From the IMG/VR virus record IMGVR_UViG_3300022925_000143, positions 1 through 27,354 of that record: a stretch of DNA of 27,354 nt. One strand, 5' to 3'. Position numbers and translations under genes: made by a program. Under the pieces are notes generated by a model. The model was given only the letters and a program-made list of their open reading frames with translations, searched no databases and was not told the DNA's origin. Each line of letters begins with the position of its first letter. Within the stretch, counting starts at the first letter, position 1. Origin of the DNA: a virus. This document shows positions 12,126 to 27,354 of the stretch, piece by piece.

Positions 12126-12611
12126 ATGTTATCAATATTATCAGCAATACTAGGCTTTGCAACATCAGGACTGCCTAGTGTCTTAGACTTTTTCAAACAA
12201 AAAGGCGATCAAAAACATGAACGCGAAATGGCACAAATTGAAATGCAAAGAGCTATGGAAATGGCTAAAGCAGGATATGCCTCGCAAGAAAGAATCGAAG
12301 AACTTAGAACAGACCAAGTTGAAATGCAAACTTACGCGGAAGAAAGAGCAGCGCTTTATAAGCATGATGAAAAACTCTCGGAAGGCGCGGCTGGTTGGGT
12401 TCTTACTCTCCGTGCTAGTGTTCGCCCCATTGTCACCTATATTTTTCTTTTTCTTCTACTATTTGTTGATATTACAGGAATGATATGGGCTATGAAATCA
12501 GGTGCTCATTTTGCAGAAGCGATGGATATAGTATTTAGTGACGAAGAGATGGCTATTGTAGCCTCTATTATTGGCTTCTGGTTTGGAAGCAGAACTTGGG
12601 AAAAGAAATAA
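12126..12611 (+). CDS. Holin (3-TM, gene-transfer-agent type)
   Basis: A 161-residue protein. It has an N-terminal hydrophobic helix (MLSILSAILGFATSGLPSVL), a long charged helical section with many Glu/Lys/Met (about 28-85), then LRASVRPIVTYIFLFLLLFV and ITGMIWAM (TM, about 98-123). A last hydrophobic segment AIVASIIGFWFG precedes a basic end, SRTWEKK. 'RPIVTY' followed by a TM and a final 'GFWFGSRT.EK' is the pattern of the 3-TM holin family known from gene transfer agents. It would form the membrane lesions that let the endolysin out. The ribosome site is weak (GGGG at 12115-12118). Ten bases separate its stop (12611) from the lysozyme start, forming a lysis pair. Confidence 0.8.
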   Translation: MLSILSAILGFATSGLPSVLDFFKQKGDQKHEREMAQIEMQRAMEMAKAGYASQERIEELRTDQVEMQTYAEERAALYKHDEKLSEGAAGWVLTLRASVRPIVTYIFLFLLLFVDITGMIWAMKSGAHFAEAMDIVFSDEEMAIVASIIGFWFGSRTWEKK

Positions 12612-15754: not shown

Positions 15755-16485
15755 TGACAATTACAGTCTATCCACCAATACCTACACCTTATAATATTCT
15801 TGTTTCTAGCGGTGAGTTATCTAATACAGAAGCTATACATAAATTTGGTGCCGTAGCTTCAATGAGTGTTAGTACAACAGGTACTATTTGGGATGTTGAT
15901 GACACTCTTTACCCTTGGGCAAGTTTAGCATCTGCACAAACTATTTATTGTATTTCAACAAGTGCATCAGATACAGGTAGTTTAGTCGTTTCAGGCCTTG
16001 ATGAAAACTATGCTCAACAGACAGAAACAGTCACTCTAACAGGGACATCTGCTGTGACTACAGCAAATACTTATATTAGGGTATTTAGAATGTATTACAC
16101 TTCAGGGGCTAATGTTGGGGATATAACTGCTAGGGTTACTTCAGGCGCAGGTACTGTTGTGGCTAAAATTTATGCAGGTAATGCTCAAACTTTGATGGCT
16201 GTATATACTATTCCAGCAGGTAAAACAGGGTATTTATATCAAGGGGTTATGTCAGCTCAAGCAGGTGCTGATGCTACAGGCAATATGTTTGTTAGATACT
16301 TTGGTGAATCTGCTTTTAGAATAGGGCATACTTTTGAAATTTCAGGGGACGGCGGCGAATATTTTTATCCGTTTGTTTTTCCTATAAAAATACCTGAGAA
16401 ATCAGATATAGATGTACGAGCAACAGTTAGGTCAAATAATGGTAGATATACTGCAGCTTTTGACCTTTTACTGGTTGATAACTAA
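15754..16485 (+). CDS. Virion structural protein, beta-rich
   Basis: A 243-residue, Thr/Ser/Ala/Gly-rich protein, ATG overlapping the prior stop (TAATG). It contains WDVDDTLYPWASLASAQTIY, then SGLDENYAQQTETVTLTGTS, an IPAGKTGYLYQGVMSAQAGA segment and a C-terminal VRSNNGRYTAAFDLLLVDN. I recall related proteins among cyanophage and marine-phage virion hypotheticals ('GLD.NY.....TV.LTG'). No TM or signal. Likely a capsid- or tail-associated component. It is the last gene before a 64-base intergenic gap with promoter-like sequence. Confidence 0.6.
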   Translation: MTITVYPPIPTPYNILVSSGELSNTEAIHKFGAVASMSVSTTGTIWDVDDTLYPWASLASAQTIYCISTSASDTGSLVVSGLDENYAQQTETVTLTGTSAVTTANTYIRVFRMYYTSGANVGDITARVTSGAGTVVAKIYAGNAQTLMAVYTIPAGKTGYLYQGVMSAQAGADATGNMFVRYFGESAFRIGHTFEISGDGGEYFYPFVFPIKIPEKSDIDVRATVRSNNGRYTAAFDLLLVDN

Positions 16486-16495
16486 GACAAAACGG

Positions 16496-16524
16496 TTTAT
16501 AGGTAACACATTTAATGGTATTAT
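16496..16524 (+). promoter_or_regulatory. Possible promoter before ejection module
   Basis: In the 16486-16549 gap, TTTATA (16496-16501, 4/6 to TTGACA) lies 17 bases from TATTAT (16519-16524, 5/6 to TATAAT), upstream of the ATG at 16550. An overlapping alternative is TTGATA (16475-16480) with TATAGG (16498-16503), also 17 bases apart. AT-rich DNA makes such matches frequent, but this is the largest gap in the second half of the window and the natural place for a promoter driving the internal virion genes. Confidence 0.35.
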
Positions 16525-16549
16525 ACAACTTATATTATAGGATCTTATT

Positions 16550-18313
16550 ATGGGTATTGGTAGAATATTAGGAGCGGCCGCTCCAATTGCTGCGGGGTAC
16601 TTTGCTCCATCCTCTATGTTTGGAGGTGCTCTAGGTGCTACGGGTAGTGCTATCGCTACTGGCGCATTGACAGGTGCTGGTATTGCCGCATTGACAGGAC
16701 AAGACGCTTTGATGGGCGGTATTACCGGTGGTCTTGGTGGTATGGGTGGTGGAGCATTCCGATCGGCAGCAGACGCAACTAAAGCGGCAGCCGCTGGAGT
16801 TGGTGGTGGAACCACGGCTGGTGTTAATTCTTTAATACAAAACCCAGAATTTATTAGCCCATTTACTCCCGCTGGTACTTTTGGTAGCCAAACTATGAAT
16901 GCTGGACTAACAGGCGCAAGTATGGGTGGCGGAGCTTTCATGCCTAATCAAGCATTAGCAATGCAAAATAATATAAATGCTACTAATAAGCTTATGGGAC
17001 CTAATCAACTAAACCCAGTATACAAAAATCAATTAGCTCCTAACTTAGCGTTTAAAGCTACTCCAGACGCAGTTGATCCAACAGCATTACAAGGTGGCTA
17101 TGAATCGTTAGGGACAAGTATGGGTAAAGGTGTTGAATCAGCCAAAGCAGCTTTTGACGAACCGGGCAAATTTTTAGAAAACTTAGGTGATGGTAATAAA
17201 ACTATCGGTGCTGCTAAAGCTGGAATTACAGCATCTGGTCCAATAATGGCTGCATTTGAACCTGAAGTACAAACATTTGATGAATTACGTACTGATAAAT
17301 ATGATCCAAACAAAGCATTAGACTTAAGTATGGATACCGGTATTGATGCTGCACTAAAACGCGATACTGGATTAAGATTATTAGCAGAAGGTGGTGAGGT
17401 TGAATCAAGCGGGTTTAGTGAGGTAGAATTAGGATATACACCAGAAGGATTCAAACCTACAACAGGTTTAGGTGAAGGGGAAACTCTAGGTGTTGATGCG
17501 TATGCTGCAGGATATAATGTTCCTCCAGGTACTGAACTTACAGCAGAAGGTAAATACATATACCCTATGATTCCTAGTTATTACTATTCTGCGTATCCTA
17601 GACGTGCATTTGAACCTTTACCTACCGGCGGTCTTGATAGCTTACAAAGAAAAGCAAAAGGTATGGCTGAAGGTGGCGAGATTACAGATGATATGAGATC
17701 AAGTTATGGCATAACACCTCAATATAAAAATGTAGGGTATGGTATGGGAGCAAGAACACAAGAAAGAGTTCCTGTTATGGGTATAGTTGATGTTGGTGGT
17801 AAGTTCGTATCAAATCCAAAAGGTGATATATCTGACGTTCAGTTTGAAGAAAAATACTTACAAAATCAAGTAGATGCAGAAAAAAATCAAAACCAACAAA
17901 GTGGTAATATGGGTCCTCAATTTGGTCCAGGAGTACCAGCTCAAATACCAGAGGCTGCTCAAAAGGCTTTAACAAACTTGGCTGGTGGTATAGCTTCAGC
18001 TCAAAAAAGTCAAGCTGCTAATCAAATAGGTAGACTAGGCGGTCTTGCTGGTGGCGGCTACTTAGAAACAGGTGGTCGTATCGGTGATGGTATGTCTGAT
18101 GATATAAAAGCTAAAATAAATAATAGTCAAGAAGCAAGATTATCAGATGGTGAATTTGTAGTTCCAGCAGATGTAGTTAGTCATTTAGGTAATGGCTCAT
18201 CAGATGCAGGCGCAAAGCGTTTATATTCTATGATGGATAAAGTAAGAAGAGCTAGAACAGGTACTAAACAACAAGGGAAAGAAATTAACCCAGAAAGGTA
18301 TATGCCCGCTTGA
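16550..18313 (+). CDS. Gly-rich internal virion protein
   Basis: A 587-residue protein, ATG preceded by TAGGATC. The N-terminus is hydrophobic and Gly/Ala-rich (about 1-100: GIGRILGAAAPIAAGYFAP, then MFGGALGATGSAIATGALTG), suggesting membrane-active or tightly packed helices. The middle holds two AEGGE[VI] motifs (279-284, 373-378). The C-terminus (about 529-570) has ARLSDGEFVVPADVVSHLGN, then GAKRLYSMMDKVRRAR, which I recall as a repeated tail of virion proteins in marine phages ('LSDGEF.VPADVVS.LG.GS..AGA'). Probably part of the ejection module packaged in the head. It overlaps the GNAT-like gene by four bases. Confidence 0.6.
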   Translation: MGIGRILGAAAPIAAGYFAPSSMFGGALGATGSAIATGALTGAGIAALTGQDALMGGITGGLGGMGGGAFRSAADATKAAAAGVGGGTTAGVNSLIQNPEFISPFTPAGTFGSQTMNAGLTGASMGGGAFMPNQALAMQNNINATNKLMGPNQLNPVYKNQLAPNLAFKATPDAVDPTALQGGYESLGTSMGKGVESAKAAFDEPGKFLENLGDGNKTIGAAKAGITASGPIMAAFEPEVQTFDELRTDKYDPNKALDLSMDTGIDAALKRDTGLRLLAEGGEVESSGFSEVELGYTPEGFKPTTGLGEGETLGVDAYAAGYNVPPGTELTAEGKYIYPMIPSYYYSAYPRRAFEPLPTGGLDSLQRKAKGMAEGGEITDDMRSSYGITPQYKNVGYGMGARTQERVPVMGIVDVGGKFVSNPKGDISDVQFEEKYLQNQVDAEKNQNQQSGNMGPQFGPGVPAQIPEAAQKALTNLAGGIASAQKSQAANQIGRLGGLAGGGYLETGGRIGDGMSDDIKAKINNSQEARLSDGEFVVPADVVSHLGNGSSDAGAKRLYSMMDKVRRARTGTKQQGKEINPERYMPA

Positions 18314-18732
18314 TAACAGCGACACTTGTTCCAAAAGAACATATAGAAAGTATTTGGCCTCAGATAGAAATATATGCTGCAAAGTGTGCCAAATACACGT
18401 ACGGTAGATATACCGCAAAAGATATGTTAGATCAGTTACTTACAATGGATCAACAGTTGTGGGTAGCATTTAATAATAAAACAAAAGAAATAATAGGGTT
18501 TTGGGTTACAGAAGTAGTTGAATACCCTCAAACAAAAGTACTAGTATTACATTTTGTAGGTGGCAAAGACTTTCACAGTTGGTTGCCAGATGGGTTTCCC
18601 AAACTACAAAAGTTTGCTAGAGAAAATGGCTGTAGTAAAATGGAATCATATGGCAGACCAGGTTGGGAAGTTATGTGGCAAGATTATGGATATAAAAAAA
18701 GATTCGTGTTTTACGAATTACCAGTGGAGTAA
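18310..18732 (+). CDS. GNAT-like protein of phage ejection module
   Basis: A 140-residue protein with a TTG start overlapping the preceding TGA. The order of elements fits a small GNAT fold: an N-terminal helix pair (PKEHIESIWPQIEIYAAKCA), a beta strand 'QQLWVAFNN..KEIIGFWV', then VLVLHFVGGKDFHSW and a final GRPGWEVMWQDYGYKKRFVF (typical 'GR.GW.......GY' end). The usual acetyl-CoA loop (Q/R-x-x-G-x-G/A) is not clear, so catalysis is uncertain. In T7-like phages a GNAT-like protein sits with the internal core proteins, and the location here agrees. Function probably structural/assembly rather than metabolic. Confidence 0.6.
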   Translation: MITATLVPKEHIESIWPQIEIYAAKCAKYTYGRYTAKDMLDQLLTMDQQLWVAFNNKTKEIIGFWVTEVVEYPQTKVLVLHFVGGKDFHSWLPDGFPKLQKFARENGCSKMESYGRPGWEVMWQDYGYKKRFVFYELPVE

Positions 18733-18738
18733 ACAATT

Positions 18739-20025
18739 ATGTGGCTAAAACTAATACCTACTAAATTAAAAGTATGGTTGATAAAACATCTATATGCGGA
18801 TATTGCAGGGATGGGTGACGGCGGCGATACAGAACTTGCGCACGTTAATTTAAAAGAAGTAGCTATATTAAAAGCTAATGGTGGTGCAGGTACTATCAAT
18901 TCACGCACAGGACTTGTTGAATTTAAAGGCAAAGGCGGCGGTGGCGGTGGCTCACAGCAAACCACTTCGTACTCTACAAACTTACCTGAATATGCAAAAC
19001 CATTCTATGAAGAGCTATTAAAACAATCTGGTAAACAAATCTATACTACAAACTCATCAGGCGCAGTAACTGGTGTCAAACCTTATACAAGCTATACAGG
19101 CGATAGAATCGCGGACTTTACTCCGGAACAAGAAGCTGTAAGAACTGAAGTACAGGGTATGACAACTCCTGGTCAGTTTGCTGACGCAGAAAAAGCAGTC
19201 GGTGACGTTACTACAATGGGTACAACAGCTGCAGCTTCCGGACTAAGTAAGGCTTTAGGTTACACACCAAGCGGCGTTACTTCGTTAGCTATGAAAACTC
19301 CAGCTGAATTTGATGCAGCGGCGGCAGCTAAATACATGAGTCCTTATGAGAGCGCAGTTACAGATGCTGCTATTAGAGAAGCTCAAAGACAAGGAGACAT
19401 TGAAAAAGTTAAATATTCTATGGGCTCTATTGGGCGTGGCACTTTTGGGGGTGGTCGTGAAGCCTTAATGAGTTCTGAAGCTGATGCAAGAACAAGAGCT
19501 TTGATTGCTGACTTACGTTCGAGAGGTAAAGAAGAAGCCTTTACAAGGGCACAAGAACAGTTTGAAAGAGATAGAACAGCTGGCATGTCTGCTGAAGCTA
19601 AAACTCTAGATGCGGCTCAACAACAAAGACAACTAGAACAACAAGCAGAACAGTTTGGAGCTGGATTACAAAAAGATTTAGGCCTTGCAGGACTTACAAC
19701 TACACTAGAAGCTGGTAGAGCTTCAGGGGCATTAGGTACAGCTGAACAAGTAGCAAATCTTGAAAGACTCAAAGCTCAAGCCGCAAGTGCTGCAGAAGAA
19801 CAAGCGTTAGATCAAGAGATAGCAAACTTAAAATATCAAGAGTTCATGGAACAGCAAGACTATCAACGCAAACTACTCGAATATCAATCAAACATTTTAC
19901 GTGGTACTGCAGGTGCATTAGGCTCTACACAAGTAGCTTACGCTCCTCAACCTTCTTTAGCATCGCAGATTGGTGGTTTAGGTTTAGCGGGTCTTGGCTT
20001 ATATAATGTATTAGGTAAGGGTTAA
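18739..20025 (+). CDS. Coiled-coil internal virion protein
   Basis: A 428-residue protein. N-terminal basic/hydrophobic helix (MWLKLIPTKLKVWLIKHLYA), then NGGAGTINSRTGLVEFKG and a run of six glycines. About 75-200 carries SYSTNLPEYAKPFYEELLKQ and DFTPEQEAVRTEV. From about 210 to 390 it is highly helical with many Gln/Glu/Ala/Arg (REAQRQGDIEKVKYSMGSIG, then EQFERDRTAGMSAEAKTLDA and further), expected to form coiled coils, and it ends in a Gly-rich hydrophobic tail (LASQIGGLGLAGLGLYNVLG). The layout matches podoviral internal core/ejection proteins. No enzymatic motif. Confidence 0.6.
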   Translation: MWLKLIPTKLKVWLIKHLYADIAGMGDGGDTELAHVNLKEVAILKANGGAGTINSRTGLVEFKGKGGGGGGSQQTTSYSTNLPEYAKPFYEELLKQSGKQIYTTNSSGAVTGVKPYTSYTGDRIADFTPEQEAVRTEVQGMTTPGQFADAEKAVGDVTTMGTTAAASGLSKALGYTPSGVTSLAMKTPAEFDAAAAAKYMSPYESAVTDAAIREAQRQGDIEKVKYSMGSIGRGTFGGGREALMSSEADARTRALIADLRSRGKEEAFTRAQEQFERDRTAGMSAEAKTLDAAQQQRQLEQQAEQFGAGLQKDLGLAGLTTTLEAGRASGALGTAEQVANLERLKAQAASAAEEQALDQEIANLKYQEFMEQQDYQRKLLEYQSNILRGTAGALGSTQVAYAPQPSLASQIGGLGLAGLGLYNVLGKG

Positions 20026-20027
20026 TT

Positions 20028-21569
20028 ATGAATATTATTCAGATACAAGATAGATTAAAAGGTGTGCCTGACCAGGCTTTAGTTGGTTATGTAGAAAACC
20101 CAACAGGCGACGTACCCACTTATTTAGCATTAGGTGAACTACAACGTCGCAAAGATATGCGTGAAAGATACCAAGCTGATGCGGCACCTGAACCTACTGT
20201 AGCTGAGCAATTAGTAGAAGAAACACAACCTCAAGGTATTGCTGGCCTAGCTCCAGAAGGCATGGATATGGCAACAGAAGGTATTGGAGCTCCTCCGATG
20301 CAACCAAAAATGACTCCTGATATGATGGCATCAAGCGGTGTTGGTGCATTACCTGCTGGTAACGTAGGTCAAAACTATGCTGGCGGCGGTATTGTTGCAT
20401 TTGAAGACGGCGGTGAAGTAGAAGAAGTTGAAATGAATGAAGAAGGTGAAGTTGAATATGGTCTTGGTGGTAAGATACTAGATTTTGGTAGAAAAATTAT
20501 TACTAAACCTCAACCAAGAATTCCAAATCCAGGTAATTTACCTATGTTACGTCCAGGCTTAATTAATAGAAACCCACTCAAATCAGGTGCACTTGGTGTA
20601 GCTGGTGCATACTATATGTTAAGTGATGATGGTGAAAAGATTCCTTTAACAGATGAACAAGCAGCCGCAATGAATCAAGGAGTAATACCTCCGGCATCTA
20701 CAACACCAGAAAAAGATAATAGAATAGTATATAATCCCCCTGCATTTCCTACTGAAGCATTCAAAGAGGAAGACCCTAGAGCTTATGGTGAAGAAAGAAT
20801 GAAAGCTTATAAAGAGTTTATTGGTGAAGATACTGTTTCACCAAGACTAGAAAAAAGATTAGCTGAATTAGAAGCAGGTTTAACAGAACAAAGAGATATT
20901 GCTCCATACATGGCATTAACAGAAGCAGGTCTAGCAATCGCTGCAGGCGAATCACCAAACGCAATGACTAATATTGCTCAAGGTGCTACTCGTGGTATTC
21001 AATCATATGCACAAGAACTTAAAGATATTAGGTCTCGCGAAGAGAAAATGTTTGACATTGATACTGAAATTCAAAAAGCTAAACGTGCAGAGCAAGTTGC
21101 AGCTGGTACTAAAGGATTTGATAGTATGGAAGCAGCAGAAGCTAGAAATAGAACTGCAGAGCTTGAACAGTTTAAAGCTGAACAAGATGCTGCTAAAACT
21201 CAATACCAAGGTGATGTGGATATTAGAGGCAAAGAAATCTCTGCTACTACTTATGGCTATAATACTAAGTCTGCATCTGCTGTGTTAGCACAAGCTAAAG
21301 CAATGGGATATGAACGTGAATCTATAACATTAAATAACTTAGAGGAAACATATAGGAGAAACCCTACGGAGGAAAATAAAAAAGTTTTAGATGCTCAACA
21401 AGCGAAAGTAGATAGAATTATGAGAAAGGCTGAAATAATGGTAACAGGTAGTCAAAGACAACCAATGCCTCCTCCCGTCCCTGGACAAAGAGTTCTATCA
21501 CAACAAGTTGAACAAGATGGAGTGAAATATAACATATATTCTGACGGATCAGTCGAACAAGTTCAATAA
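20028..21569 (+). CDS. Helical internal virion protein with YAGGGIVAF motif
   Basis: A 513-residue protein. N-terminal helix (IQDRLKGVPDQALVGYVENP, ALGELQRRKDMRERY) is a recurrent start of marine-phage internal proteins. At 117-131 it has YAGGGIVAFEDGGEV, a 'Gly-Gly-hydrophobic-then-acidic' motif recalled from many such proteins, followed by an acidic stretch (EEVEMNEEGEVE). From about 270 to 470 the sequence is helical with heptad-like Glu/Lys/Ala (RLEKRLAELEAGLTEQRDI, RSREEKMFDIDTEIQKAKRA). It ends with a short beta element (VEQDGVKYNIYSDGSVEQVQ). Likely a core/ejection partner of the flanking gene products. Confidence 0.6.
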   Translation: MNIIQIQDRLKGVPDQALVGYVENPTGDVPTYLALGELQRRKDMRERYQADAAPEPTVAEQLVEETQPQGIAGLAPEGMDMATEGIGAPPMQPKMTPDMMASSGVGALPAGNVGQNYAGGGIVAFEDGGEVEEVEMNEEGEVEYGLGGKILDFGRKIITKPQPRIPNPGNLPMLRPGLINRNPLKSGALGVAGAYYMLSDDGEKIPLTDEQAAAMNQGVIPPASTTPEKDNRIVYNPPAFPTEAFKEEDPRAYGEERMKAYKEFIGEDTVSPRLEKRLAELEAGLTEQRDIAPYMALTEAGLAIAAGESPNAMTNIAQGATRGIQSYAQELKDIRSREEKMFDIDTEIQKAKRAEQVAAGTKGFDSMEAAEARNRTAELEQFKAEQDAAKTQYQGDVDIRGKEISATTYGYNTKSASAVLAQAKAMGYERESITLNNLEETYRRNPTEENKKVLDAQQAKVDRIMRKAEIMVTGSQRQPMPPPVPGQRVLSQQVEQDGVKYNIYSDGSVEQVQ

Positions 21570-21578
21570 GGATAAACA

Positions 21579-24500
21579 ATGCCTTTTGACCCAAACAAAC
21601 CATTTGAAGTCATAAAGACTTACAAACAACCTCAAACAGGGTTTGACCCAAACAAACCGTTCACAGTAATAAAAGACTTTCAACAACCTCAACAACCTCA
21701 ACAACCCAAAGTACTTAAAGAAGGTGAAGGCAGCGACTTTGCTCGTGGCTTTGGTACATACTTTGACCAGTATGGCGGTATTTTAGGCGGCGCAAAAGTA
21801 TTAACAGGTAAAGCTATAGGTGATGACGAACTTGTAATGAGTGGTGTCGCAGATATGCAAGAGTCTGAAGCTAAAGTAGGTGCTCGTGGTGTAAAAGAAA
21901 CTGACGAATTTACCAAAGCTTGGGATAAAGGAATTAGCGAAGTACTTACAGAATTCCTGCCTTATATTGCGGGTCAAGGTGTAGGTATGATTGGTGAGGC
22001 TTTTATCACTTCTATTGCAGGAGGTATGATTGGTAGTGCTGTTGCACCAGGAGCGGGTACAGGAACTGGACTATTAACAGGATTTGTTGGTAAAGAGCTA
22101 GTTAAAAAAGGAATTATAGAAGCTGCTAAAGAAATGTCTGAAGTAGAAGCTCAGAAATATATAAGAAATGAAACGGCTAAACTTATACAATCCGAGGCCG
22201 GTAAACAAGCAATTAAAAATATTTATAAGAAAGCTGGTAGCAACATAGCTCTTACTGGTATGGCTGCTAAATTTGGCGCAGGTGAAGTTACAGGTAGAGC
22301 AGTTGATGAAGCTATTAAAGATATTGATGATCCTGAATTACAACTAGAAAAAATTAAAGAGCTTAGCACAGGTAAGCTAGCTACATTAAGTACTGCTCAT
22401 GCATTGGCTAACTTTATTAGCCTTAAAATTGGTCTTGGGTCTTTAGAAAAACTTGCAGCACCTACACAAAGCATGTTGCTTAATATAGCTAAAAATATAG
22501 GTATTACAGGTATTAAAGAAGCTCCTGTTGAAGCTATTCAATCTGGTATAGAGAGGTATGGTGCTGACTTACCACTTACTGATAGAGCAGCATTAGAAGA
22601 ATATATTAATGCCGCGGCTGCTGGTTTTGCAATGCCTATCATACCTGCTACTATTGGTGGTATAAGAACAACTACATCACCTACAACATCATCACCTGAA
22701 GGATCAACTGTAGATCCAGAGCCAGAATCAAAAGGCCCAGAGCCATCGGGACCGAAACAACCTAGTGATAGAAAAGGTTGGAATTTTGATGACAAAGAAG
22801 TAGAAAGACGTGATAATATAATAAAAGACCAAGAAATAATTAATTTAAATGAAGACCTAGTTGATGTTGATTTAGATGATGCAGATACTAGACCTAAACT
22901 CTTACAAGCTCCTGAAGAAAGTCCCGAAGACTATAAATTACCTCCAATCCAAGAAATAGAAAGAAAAATCAAGGAGAAAGCAGATGCTCAGCGACCTAGC
23001 CAACTTGACGACGAACCAGATAGAGGAAGCATTTCAATACCTCAATCTGAGTCTACTAAATCCAGAAAACAATTATCCCCTACCAAAGAGCTTGGAACAG
23101 TTGTCAGAAGCACAGTGGATAGCAATACAAGTGATGCTGGCGCAGCTGATGGACGAGAGGGAAAACCACTCAGTTCACTAAGTAGAATACCTGAAGAAGG
23201 GTTTGAAAGAATTCAAGTAGGTACGCAAGATATAATTACAGGCTATGATAAAGATGGTCAGCCTATTACTCAACAAGAAAAATTATTTGTTGATCGCCCT
23301 ATAAAAAATTTCCAACAAGAAGTTAATAAACAATTAAATCTACCTCTTGGTCAAACAGACGAACTTGCATTATACAAAAATCAAATAGAATCTTATATAA
23401 ACAAACGTCAATACCGAAATCAGCTAGGCGAAATAATAAGTGAATATGATAACGTTGGTATGCCTTATGCCGTTACACAAGAAGGCTTAGCTGAAGCAGA
23501 ATCAATCTATACAAGCATACTAAATTCAGAAGGTAAAGCTGCAGCGGATAGATATATACAGAACAAACGTGAGACTGATCCTTTATTTAATAAAACTAAG
23601 ATTGATACAGAGTCTGCTACTACAGAGACAGAAGGTATACTACCTATATATGCAACAAACAATTTAGAAAATGCTCAAGCTTATCTAGTAAAAAACAATT
23701 TAACTGACCACTATATTAATCCAGAAGAAGATGTTGCTGGTAGGACTCTTGCATATTCTGTAAGACCTAAAGTACTTCTTCCTAATACTCGCCCTATTAC
23801 AGTAGCTGATTTTTTAATTAGAGATAAAGGTAAGAACTTAAATAAAACATCTAATCCACTTAAATTCTCTACAACACCTAATGAAAGCGTAGTAAAAAAC
23901 ATACTGCAAACTAAGTTAGATACAGCTCAATTTAATCAGTTAAATGCTAACCCTAAAGTATTCAAGACTATCGCTAATGAGTTTGCTCAACGAAGCTCCG
24001 ACCAAGACGCAGGCTCAACTCCTTCACAAGAAATAAATACTCGTAAAGCTCGTGAATTAGAATTTGATGTAAGGTCAGAAACATTACCTGGTTTCCAAGA
24101 ATTTATGAAGCGTATGGCTTTAATGGGTATCAAAGAGTTACCAAGCTTCTTAAAGGCAGGAGCTGTATTTGGTTCAGCAAAAGCACCAATACAAGGGGCA
24201 TTCTCAGTAGATGAAGTTATAGAAAATGCGTTAGGAGATTATATCTTTGAAGAAGCCGCAGACTCACAATCTAAAGTAAAAGATTTTGGTTCAGGACAGA
24301 ACGTAGGCCCAGCTGACAAGGCTAGACGTAAAGCATTACGAGATGAGTTTATTAATTCACCTATCATACAAGAATACTATTTAAATAGAAAAGGTAGTAG
24401 ATATAACAGCCTAGAAGAAATACAAAAAGATATTAATAACTACAAAAATTATTTTGATACAGGCACTGAATACAATGACGGTAGAGAAATAATAAATGAA

Positions 24501-27354
24501 ATAGAAGATGCAGAGATCAAAGCATTAGCTCAAGCTGTACGAGACCAACAAGATAAAGCAGCTATAAAACGAGTTAAAAATAAAATAGCTGACCAAATAA
24601 AAGCTAAGTCTGACAAGTATAAAAAAGCAATTAAAAAAGAAGAAATAGATCTAGAAGATATACAAATAGATGAAGACATAGAGATAGCTATAGATGAGAT
24701 AATGGACTTACCAGCTCAAATAAACCCATTTGATGAAATGGTACAAAACTCTGATGACATACAAGGTGATTTACTTGAGATGTTAGACGATAGGTCAGAA
24801 GTTAATAGACTTATAGAGCAGTATAAAAATGACCCTATAGCTCTCTTAAATGATTTAGGTGAGAGACTTACAAGACAAGCAGAAGTAAATGCAGAACTAG
24901 GTGATACAAGAAAAGCATCTTACAGAGCTCAGCAAGCAGAGTTAATAAACCAAATTTTAAAAATACCTGGTATAGATAAAGTATCAGTAGTAAACGCTGA
25001 TCCTAAGACTATAAAAGGATATTTAGATGAGTTTGCAGATGCAGCGGGTAGACCTAGACCTAGATCTAGATCATCAGGTTTTTATACACCTGTTCAAAAC
25101 GTAAGACCAAGTCAGTCAGGTTTATCAAAAGCAATTAAAATAAAAGGTGCTGAATTTAAAGATGTTATTGTGATAGACGACACAATGTCCAGTGGCCAAG
25201 CATTAAAAACATTGTTACATGAATTTGCTCATGTCGGTACGGTAAATGCAATTCAGTTTGATATGTTAACTAATGTTGAGTTTGACGAATTAATAAATTT
25301 GTTTAATAAAGCTAAACGATATGCAAGACAACAAAGCAGAGGTAAAGTAGTAGGGCAAGACTATGAATATAATGATTATGGTTTTAGTAATATAAAAGAA
25401 TTTATTGCAGAAGCATTTTCTAATGCAGAGTTCCAACAGTTTTTAGCAAGTATTCCATCAGATTCTAATCTACCTAGCGAAACAGGGTTCTTTAGGTCAT
25501 TGTTTGATGACTTTATAAGTTTTATTTCTACTACACTTGGTCTAGAAAATATTGATAATACAGTATTAAAAGATACAATTCAGTTGTCAGCTCGTGCATT
25601 TCAAATAGGTACGCTACCACTAAAACTTGACAAGAACAGAACTAAATCTTGGTATAGAAAACAAGACTTCCGTAAAAAAATGGATGAAATTAAAGAAATA
25701 GAAGATGCTGAAGAACTAGGAGAGATTACTCCTGCAAGAGCTAGATATAGAAAATTAGTCAATAAAATTAAATACCCTGATTTTGCTGTTGATCCAATGG
25801 CTGATGAAAAACCACGTGAAAGACGTAATGTGGATATTATTAAATTTCCTAAACCTACTAAACACGATAGATCATTTAATGAACAAGTACGTGATAATAC
25901 TGAATTGTTTGAAAGAGAAGAAAGTACTTTCGGCAAAAGACTTAAAAATAGTTTCTTTAATGAAAAAGATGGCTTCTTTAAAAACGGGGATAAGCTTTTA
26001 ACAACTGCAATTAGAAATTATGCAAACCGTTCTATTGATATTAAGAAAGCTCAAGATAACTTAGAGCGTTCAGGTTTATTGTTAGTTGGTGTTGATGGAT
26101 TTAATAATGTATTTGACCAGCTAACTAGAGCGTTTGGTTTATCAGATTACTACATGAAAAAAATGCAGCCAGCATTTGATGCCTACTCAAGAGCTTTAGG
26201 TAATTATGTAGAGTTACAAAAACAAAACGGTATGTCTGAAGCAGAAGCTAAAGGGCTATTAAAAACTCTGTTCACAGGTATGCATGAATCTGAACGTAGA
26301 GAAATAAAATTCTTATTAGATGTTCCTTTGAGTAATGAGCAAATTATACGACGTAGAGATGGCACTGCAACAAGTCCTGCTGCTTTACGTGAAGATATAA
26401 TGAAACAAATCACTACTAAAGTATGGAAAGATAGTGAACAAAAGAAAAATGATTTACAAAAATATAAAGAGCAACTACGTAGATTAGCAAACGCTGAAAC
26501 TAAAGTATCAGGTAAAAACACAGTAGATTCTGTTGCAGGCACAAGTTACTTTAGCCCTGAGAAAAAAGGCGGCCCAGTAGATATTACAAGTAATAGATAT
26601 GATGTATCTGACATGAGTGCAACTCAAGCATCTATAGCTCAAAGTCAGTTAGCTAATCTTAAATATACTGACCCAGATGTATATCAAAGTATCACACAGC
26701 TTAGAGAAGCTATGACTCAACTCAATAAAGATACATTAGAATTGAATTCTGAAGCTAACTATGCTAGCCCACAAGCTATGAACGTTATTGAATTTTATGG
26801 CTGGGAAAATTATATACCTCTAAAACGTAGACAGCTTGATGCAGAAGAATCTTTCTACAATCCAACAGGTGGTAGGATGTCTAGAGAACTTAAGAAATTA
26901 GAAAGCTCATTTGAAGGTAATCAAGGCGAATCAGAAGACCCATTTACTCAAACTATTGTAGATGCATCAAGAGCTGCAGCACGAGCTGGAAGAATTAACT
27001 ACACACAATCTGTATATAATGCAGTTACACAAACAGTTAAATACAAAGACCGTACAACAGGAAAAGAAGTAAAAGGTAAAGCTATTGATGGTAAAGTCTT
27101 AAATACATATACTTACGAAGATCGTTATAGAAATAATCCAGAGTTACAAAAAGATTTAGCGAAGAAGAATACAGTATTACATTTCTTAGATGATGGAAGT
27201 ATTGCAGTTATAGAAATAAAAAATGATAATCTATTACAAGCTATACGAGGAGCATATGCAGAAAATCCTCAATGGGTAGCATTTTTAAATAGAATAACAG
27301 GGGGCTTAGGGCAATTACATACTAGATTTAACCCTCCATTTGCAACCTTAAACT
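21579..27354 (+). CDS. Giant polyvalent-type ejection protein, partial at 3' end
   Basis: An open frame of at least 1925 codons with no stop before the window end; start ATG 21579 with AAGGA upstream. The first 45 residues contain a duplicated FDPNKPF.VIK motif and a QQP run. Hydrophobic Gly/Ala-rich segments lie near 125-165 (LPYIAGQGVGMIGEAFITSI, GGMIGSAVAPGAG). Further on, H1214-E-F-A-H1218 with E1274-F-I-A-E1278-AF downstream matches a zinc metallopeptidase seen in large polyvalent phage proteins. The end (about 1740-1925) has GWENYIPLKRR and NPPFATLN, reminiscent of the LPD38 associated domain. Likely packaged in the head and ejected, where it may cut or remodel host targets. The LPD label is from memory. 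Confidence 0.7.
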   Translation, partial: MPFDPNKPFEVIKTYKQPQTGFDPNKPFTVIKDFQQPQQPQQPKVLKEGEGSDFARGFGTYFDQYGGILGGAKVLTGKAIGDDELVMSGVADMQESEAKVGARGVKETDEFTKAWDKGISEVLTEFLPYIAGQGVGMIGEAFITSIAGGMIGSAVAPGAGTGTGLLTGFVGKELVKKGIIEAAKEMSEVEAQKYIRNETAKLIQSEAGKQAIKNIYKKAGSNIALTGMAAKFGAGEVTGRAVDEAIKDIDDPELQLEKIKELSTGKLATLSTAHALANFISLKIGLGSLEKLAAPTQSMLLNIAKNIGITGIKEAPVEAIQSGIERYGADLPLTDRAALEEYINAAAAGFAMPIIPATIGGIRTTTSPTTSSPEGSTVDPEPESKGPEPSGPKQPSDRKGWNFDDKEVERRDNIIKDQEIINLNEDLVDVDLDDADTRPKLLQAPEESPEDYKLPPIQEIERKIKEKADAQRPSQLDDEPDRGSISIPQSESTKSRKQLSPTKELGTVVRSTVDSNTSDAGAADGREGKPLSSLSRIPEEGFERIQVGTQDIITGYDKDGQPITQQEKLFVDRPIKNFQQEVNKQLNLPLGQTDELALYKNQIESYINKRQYRNQLGEIISEYDNVGMPYAVTQEGLAEAESIYTSILNSEGKAAADRYIQNKRETDPLFNKTKIDTESATTETEGILPIYATNNLENAQAYLVKNNLTDHYINPEEDVAGRTLAYSVRPKVLLPNTRPITVADFLIRDKGKNLNKTSNPLKFSTTPNESVVKNILQTKLDTAQFNQLNANPKVFKTIANEFAQRSSDQDAGSTPSQEINTRKARELEFDVRSETLPGFQEFMKRMALMGIKELPSFLKAGAVFGSAKAPIQGAFSVDEVIENALGDYIFEEAADSQSKVKDFGSGQNVGPADKARRKALRDEFINSPIIQEYYLNRKGSRYNSLEEIQKDINNYKNYFDTGTEYNDGREIINEIEDAEIKALAQAVRDQQDKAAIKRVKNKIADQIKAKSDKYKKAIKKEEIDLEDIQIDEDIEIAIDEIMDLPAQINPFDEMVQNSDDIQGDLLEMLDDRSEVNRLIEQYKNDPIALLNDLGERLTRQAEVNAELGDTRKASYRAQQAELINQILKIPGIDKVSVVNADPKTIKGYLDEFADAAGRPRPRSRSSGFYTPVQNVRPSQSGLSKAIKIKGAEFKDVIVIDDTMSSGQALKTLLHEFAHVGTVNAIQFDMLTNVEFDELINLFNKAKRYARQQSRGKVVGQDYEYNDYGFSNIKEFIAEAFSNAEFQQFLASIPSDSNLPSETGFFRSLFDDFISFISTTLGLENIDNTVLKDTIQLSARAFQIGTLPLKLDKNRTKSWYRKQDFRKKMDEIKEIEDAEELGEITPARARYRKLVNKIKYPDFAVDPMADEKPRERRNVDIIKFPKPTKHDRSFNEQVRDNTELFEREESTFGKRLKNSFFNEKDGFFKNGDKLLTTAIRNYANRSIDIKKAQDNLERSGLLLVGVDGFNNVFDQLTRAFGLSDYYMKKMQPAFDAYSRALGNYVELQKQNGMSEAEAKGLLKTLFTGMHESERREIKFLLDVPLSNEQIIRRRDGTATSPAALREDIMKQITTKVWKDSEQKKNDLQKYKEQLRRLANAETKVSGKNTVDSVAGTSYFSPEKKGGPVDITSNRYDVSDMSATQASIAQSQLANLKYTDPDVYQSITQLREAMTQLNKDTLELNSEANYASPQAMNVIEFYGWENYIPLKRRQLDAEESFYNPTGGRMSRELKKLESSFEGNQGESEDPFTQTIVDASRAAARAGRINYTQSVYNAVTQTVKYKDRTTGKEVKGKAIDGKVLNTYTYEDRYRNNPELQKDLAKKNTVLHFLDDGSIAVIEIKNDNLLQAIRGAYAENPQWVAFLNRITGGLGQLHTRFNPPFATLN
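21585..21674 (+). repeat. Duplicated FDPNKPF.VIK motif
   Basis: Bases 21585-21617 and 21642-21674 encode the same 11-residue pattern FDPNKPF(E/T)VIK at the very start of the giant gene. The spacing is 57 bases (19 residues), and a QQPQQPQQP stretch follows. I recall 'FDP..PFEV' repeats at the N-terminus of similar giant phage proteins, where they may act as a packaging or docking signal (inference). Confidence 0.7.
22984..23181 (+). CDS. Nested 65-residue gene inside giant ORF, other frame
   Basis: An ORF in the +1 frame relative to the giant gene. A textbook AAGGAG (22971-22976) lies seven bases before its ATG. The product is 65 residues and looks like a genuine helical protein: LANLTTNQIEEAFQYLNLSL, PLPKSLEQLSEAQWIAIQVM, then LAQLMDERENHSVH. 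I recall short stand-alone phage proteins with this pattern ('L..QI..AF.YLNLSLL', 'L..LS...W......L..L..E...S.LH'). Over the same bases the giant frame reads as low-complexity Ser/Arg/Pro/Gly sequence, and local GC is higher (about 45% by hand count). Together these suggest a real overprinted gene. Function unknown. Confidence 0.6.
   Translation: MLSDLANLTTNQIEEAFQYLNLSLLNPENNYPLPKSLEQLSEAQWIAIQVMLAQLMDERENHSVH

Follow-up and report, generated by a model that had tools for sequence, protein, structure and literature searches.

The question raised by this locus is whether a short ORF lying inside a giant phage gene, and read in another frame, encodes a protein of its own. The sequence analysed, hereafter the window, is the viral record IMGVR_UViG_3300022925_000143 with a length of 27,354 bases. 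The first-pass annotation had described a 65-codon alternative-frame ORF with AAGGAG seven bases before its ATG, both of which are borne out by the sequence (Table 1), and had considered it either a real nested gene or the trace of a once-separate gene absorbed by the giant one, naming homologues, free-standing copies in relatives and synonymous variation in the overlap as the points to be checked. The codons richer in G and C that it mentioned were found as well, with the nested gene having a G+C content of 0.46 and a GC3 of 0.57 versus 0.37 for the contig. The evidence given below strongly supports the ORF being a real, previously unannotated gene and not a chance open frame, although its translation is inferred, there being no expression data.

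Table 1 Features of the window relevant to the nested gene and its genomic context.
Feature	Coordinates	Strand	Description
Virion structural protein, 718 aa	13075..15231	+	phrog_3287; relatives annotated as P22-type stabilization protein
428-aa gene	18739..20025	+	DNA ejection protein family phrog_4287, E 3.6e-9
513-aa gene	20028..21569	+	Second gene of the ejection module, directly 5' of the giant gene
Giant host gene	21579..27353	+	1925 codons up to the contig end, which truncates it; polyvalent-protein type, last in the ejection module
Shine-Dalgarno (SD) sequence AAGGAG	22971..22976	+	7-nt spacer to the nested ATG
Nested gene	22984..23181	+	65 aa, ATG to TAA, +1 frame of the giant ORF 21579-27353

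Taken alone, the length of the ORF is weak evidence, and the reading of it as a chance open frame or a shadow of the giant's coding sequence draws on the fact that +1-frame runs of at least 60 codons are common, another one being present in 81 of 115 giants. It is conservation, not length, that places the nested ORF above chance. A TBLASTN search with the 65-aa product against related loci returned a dozen relatives with approximately 27–44% identity (best E = 1e-7), matching 12 of the 81 loci without a single internal stop, and a C-terminal histidine is common to nearly all of them. The same search with 34 other alternative-frame ORFs of the window gave nothing, a few close loci, or shadow matches to conserved genes which were mostly interrupted by stops. 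An SD match of at least 5 nt to the anti-SD reference precedes 77% of 115 unique nested members and only 4% of 16,020 control starts in the +1 frame of these giants, the former figure being inflated because the member starts were partly chosen by their SD sequence.

No relatives were found when viral contigs were queried with the window ORF or with the first third of the giant, so the relatives were reached via the 718-aa protein and the last part of the giant. Viral contigs and genomes were also scanned at the DNA level for the pattern P..L..L...QW followed by 19 residues, histidine and a stop, and two further alignment-based scans were added. This homologue search yielded family members at 221 loci, one at each, which represent 149 distinct sequences carried nearly exclusively by metagenomic viral contigs; 144 of them are nested in a giant ORF, all in one relative frame, and five are free-standing. 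The DNA pattern required the terminal histidine, but in a later scan without this requirement 64 of 65 members still ended in it. When whole records were searched, exactly one copy was present in each of the 26 positive records. A profile built from 74 other members, every one less than 50% identical to the window product, recovers the window member at E = 6e-19, with the next-best match in the window at 0.25, and each of the 13 members tested in this way, that of the window included, was the top match of its profile (built from members below 50% identity). At each of 13 loci inspected, as in the window, a long ORF encloses the match, the frame relation between the two is the same, and an SD sequence precedes the start. 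The bacterial and archaeal genomes (257 Gb) gave 45 pattern matches with only one true member among them, and the family is therefore essentially viral. The sole member from these genome contigs is located on a 32-kb contig of an alphaproteobacterial MAG, which is probably a binned phage contig.

No credible counterpart of the family was found in the resources consulted. There was no match in a TBLASTN search of five members against 50,697 phage records, which is insensitive to distant members, nor for 76 members against PHROGs and NCBIfam at E ≤ 0.01; 13 members gave nothing below E 0.09 against Pfam, and a PDB sequence search found nothing credible for the small product. The family profile, which finds 26 of 35 other records, did not match any of 19 named phages (P22, T7, P-SSP7, HMO-2011 and 15 others). 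The best Foldseek E values were 4 in PDB and 1.6 in BFVD, and the best VIA match had a Z of 4.5; small helical models commonly give weak helical matches of this kind (Z up to 4.5). No earlier description of the nested gene was found in the literature, limited to open-licence papers. Gene callers which allow one frame per locus would miss such a gene, and it is absent from every library searched.

Selection on the two frames can be separated since the third codon position of the giant corresponds to the second position of the small gene, and the first position of the giant to the small gene's wobble position. Among 31 disjoint pairs of nested members, the substitutions per site at giant codon positions 1/2/3 amount to.276/.232/.429 upstream of the overlap,.218/.119/.064 within it and.261/.212/.394 downstream, with position 1 exceeding position 3 in the overlap of every pair listed. 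The site class that is normally the freest in the giant is the most constrained one in the overlap, and the highest rate passes to the small gene's wobble position, which is just what selection on the small protein should produce. The pairs were chosen by overlap identity, which lowers the overlap total but does not of itself alter how the positions rank. In a profile of 38 pairs in 10-codon bins, the rate at giant position 3 falls from about 0.4 to less than 0.1 inside the small ORF and is 0.41 again directly 3' of its stop, giving sharp edges at both the start and the stop, with 36 of the 38 pairs in agreement. The same holds for the window and its nearest relative, L329, which differ at giant codon positions 1, 2 and 3 by 34/16/10 bases in the overlap and by 107/60/199 in the upstream domain; their small frames are identical at 45 of 65 residues, and the giant frames read from the same bases only at 25 of 64. 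Synonymous variation of the giant frame thus collapses exactly in the overlap, and together with the homologues this supports the first-pass suggestion of a real nested gene. Its other suggestion, the trace of an absorbed gene, does not find support, for the small frame is under strong purifying selection today and therefore belongs to a living gene and not to a mere remnant of fusion.

The reading as chance or shadow is refuted by the reversal of codon positions together with the free-standing copies, and may for practical purposes be dismissed: selection tracks the codon periodicity of the small frame, which moreover is conserved at distances where the giant frame can no longer be aligned. 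Elsewhere in the window, positions 12126-12611 are occupied by a conserved 161-aa holin-like gene (40–91% identity in relatives), and the 88-aa +1-frame ORF contained in it (12217-12483), which served as a control, looks like a mere shadow frame, no codon-position reversal being observed in the closest full-length relatives.

The conserved bases might instead constitute an RNA or translation-control element with the peptide as a by-product, and internal SD-like sites can indeed slow ribosomes. Such an element would not produce constraint with the codon periodicity of the small frame, the amino acid motifs are kept while the wobble positions vary, and the gene is also found outside the giant, which leaves this explanation with hardly any credibility. 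It is likewise very improbable, if slightly less so, that ribosomes translating the giant shift into the +1 frame, so that the small frame encodes the C-terminus of the resulting product and no protein of its own. The unvarying relative frame speaks for a frameshift, but most members have a start codon and an SD sequence, the free copies possess an SD and a start of their own, and in 30 of 110 cases an in-frame stop lies no more than three codons upstream of the start and so leaves almost no room for a shift. We regard it as nearly certain that the nested ORF is a real translated gene, even in the absence of expression, ribosome-profiling or proteomic data.

In the overlap the giant frame is preserved too: under random synonymous recoding of the small genes it would stay open in only 2.4% of cases on average (an expectation of 2.7 in 110), yet an open giant frame surrounds 144 of the 149 distinct members. 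Its disorder-like character, noticed in the first-pass annotation, extends to the whole family, the overlaps having a fraction of 0.85 disorder-promoting and 0.15 hydrophobic residues compared to 0.71 and 0.28 in the rest of the giants. In low-GC phages, GC3 is about 0.4–0.8 for nested small genes and 0.14–0.37 for free ones, i.e. the free genes have genome-like codons and the nested genes bear the imprint of the second frame. Homology of the members, selection specific to the small frame and maintenance of the giant frame have thereby been demonstrated.

The host gene is complete in L329, where it encodes 2574 aa and contains an LPD38 domain above the Pfam cut-off; LPD38 or LPD39 is above the cut-off in all 12 complete giants tested. 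The giant of the window has no LPD match, its contig ending before that part. Both are domains of phage polyvalent proteins, LPD38 being listed as phage-specific (PMC5512222). From its position in the ejection module, the giant is inferred to be packaged and injected with the DNA. At positions 25100-25600 of the window (giant residues ~1190-1340) there is an HExxH-like motif, LLHEFAHVG, in a stretch that matches phrog_37402 and hypothetical proteins of crAss-like phages with approximately 31% identity and is possibly a metallopeptidase-like domain. Another giant hosting the nested gene, that of L110, has a HATPase (gyrase/HSP90-like) domain at residues 562-663. The small gene is absent, in the sequence covered, from relatives with a short last ejection gene (~670–1440 aa), as well as from L022, L025/L029, L030, L046, L057 and L085, in which the third ejection gene is long, and therefore the giant does not always need it. 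The long gene of L085 (Synechococcus phage MinM2), located at 15886-24297 and annotated as RelA/SpoT, encodes 2803 aa and is the last of its ejection module.

The five distinct free-standing sequences all have an SD sequence of AGGAG or longer and are 46–60% identical to their nearest nested relatives. The free copy is located directly 3' of the giant's end in L260/L275 and L290 and about 50 nt past it in L165, while in L117 it lies between homologues of the 428-aa and 513-aa ejection genes (65% over 106 aa for the latter), and in L103/L311 it is found upstream of the terminase large-subunit gene, not by a giant. Where others carry the small gene, the giants of L260 and L165 have a +1 frame full of stops, and there is no second copy in either record, so the gene has moved without being duplicated. 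On the tree of the small protein, the free state appears at several separate places inside nested clades, with four changes by parsimony, at least three of which are forced by supported branches, and both branches of the deepest supported split contain nested members. This tree has only 68 columns and a midpoint root and is hence not decisive, so that a nested ancestral state with at least three escapes is favoured but not proven.

The opposite course, in which a once-free and still functional gene was overrun as the upstream frame extended into the giant, would be consistent with the free homologues adjoining ejection genes and with the giant frame in the overlap looking like the conceding, disorder-rich one. 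However, the positions of nested and free members in the tree, the single shared frame, which suggests one nesting event, and the stops in the giants of L260 and L165, as expected after a move out, all run counter to it. We consider this course rather unlikely, yet a formerly free, absorbed ancestor cannot be excluded. Going beyond ancestral nesting, one may tentatively propose an unrecognised, widespread phage family whose nested state in ejection/polyvalent giants is itself selected and which escaped to free loci at least three times. If this were true, nesting could, for example, yield a partner in cis at a fixed ratio to the giant, and the family would be a natural series for watching genes enter and leave overlap.

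As to expression, the small gene is overprinted, in the +1 frame, on the linker of the giant ejection/polyvalent gene. Some ribosomes would start internally on the giant's mRNA at the small gene's own SD sequence and synthesise a separate product, an acidic helical protein of roughly 55–90 aa, while others would pass over these bases in the giant frame and produce the giant. Such internal starts are an inference drawn from the pattern of SD sequences and start codons and from the existence of free-standing homologues. An overprinted functional gene translated in this manner is very probable; this judgement covers the gene and its mode of expression and not its biochemical role.

The AlphaFold2 model of the 65-aa product agrees with the helical, protein-like sequence noted in the first-pass annotation, containing helices at residues 4-7, 10-25, 35-39 and 42-61, three of them main ones, with a pLDDT of 83.7. 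The family has a median pI of 4.6 and a median net charge of −6, invariant L37, L40 and W45, near-invariant A16, P34, Q44, L52 and L55, and a C-terminal motif S-x-[VIL]-H. Cysteine is absent from the window product and accounts for 0.5% of residues across nested members. With neither a fold nor a family to name, the biochemical role can only be guessed at from where the gene lies and from the charge and size of its product. The product may be a late-expressed cytoplasmic partner in virion assembly, and a chaperone or loading factor for ejection proteins would be the most likely form of it, a function inferred with no more than limited confidence. A late regulator, or a small ejected protein for host takeover or anti-defence, for which the virion gene is merely a location, is also possible, though doubtful. 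Small acidic phage proteins often have such functions, and one copy (L103/L311) lies near the terminase gene. The giants also carry polyvalent-protein domains linked to host conflict (PMC5512222). Against a regulator or host-directed protein, all copies with identifiable neighbours are in a late structural, packaging or ejection module, and the gene is missing where the third ejection gene is short.

Several known systems are comparable in part. In the P22-type module (gp7, gp20 and gp16 after gp10), as in the window, there are a stabilization-type protein, ejection genes including a phrog_4287 DNA ejection protein, and a long last gene. The last ejection gene of the window type is several times longer than that of P22. 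The host giants, with their LPD38 or LPD39, resemble phage polyvalent proteins (Iyer et al. 2017, PMC5512222), but the nested gene has its own product, encoded in a different frame, and no counterpart of it was found in their paper, from the text of which the word "overlapping" is absent.

The lambda Rz/Rz1 spanins are similar in that a small +1-frame gene is placed over the flexible linker of a longer gene and proteins of this kind are also encoded by separate genes, spanin architectures being embedded, overlapped or separated (PMC6139136). Nevertheless, no single spanin family joins the embedded with the overlapped or separated forms (PMC6139136), whereas the present one comprises nested and free members, and its host is a gene of roughly 2000 aa of the ejection/polyvalent type. 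An Rz1-type o-spanin was rejected as the identity of the product, which lacks a lipobox cysteine and whose gene lies in the last ejection-module gene and not by an i-spanin in a lysis cassette. The direction and cost of gene overlap are an open question for spanins also (PMC6139136), and with nested and free members in one family they become open to comparative study.

PhiX174 E in D and other overprinted viral genes (PMC8227390) likewise lie wholly inside another gene in a second frame; unlike PhiX174, the carriers described here are tailed dsDNA phages with genomes of ~45–65 kb, and the family also exists free-standing. For a conserved nested gene in tailed phages with non-minimal genomes, shortage of space is a weak explanation, and its presence points to a component of the ejection/polyvalent-protein module that had so far gone unseen.
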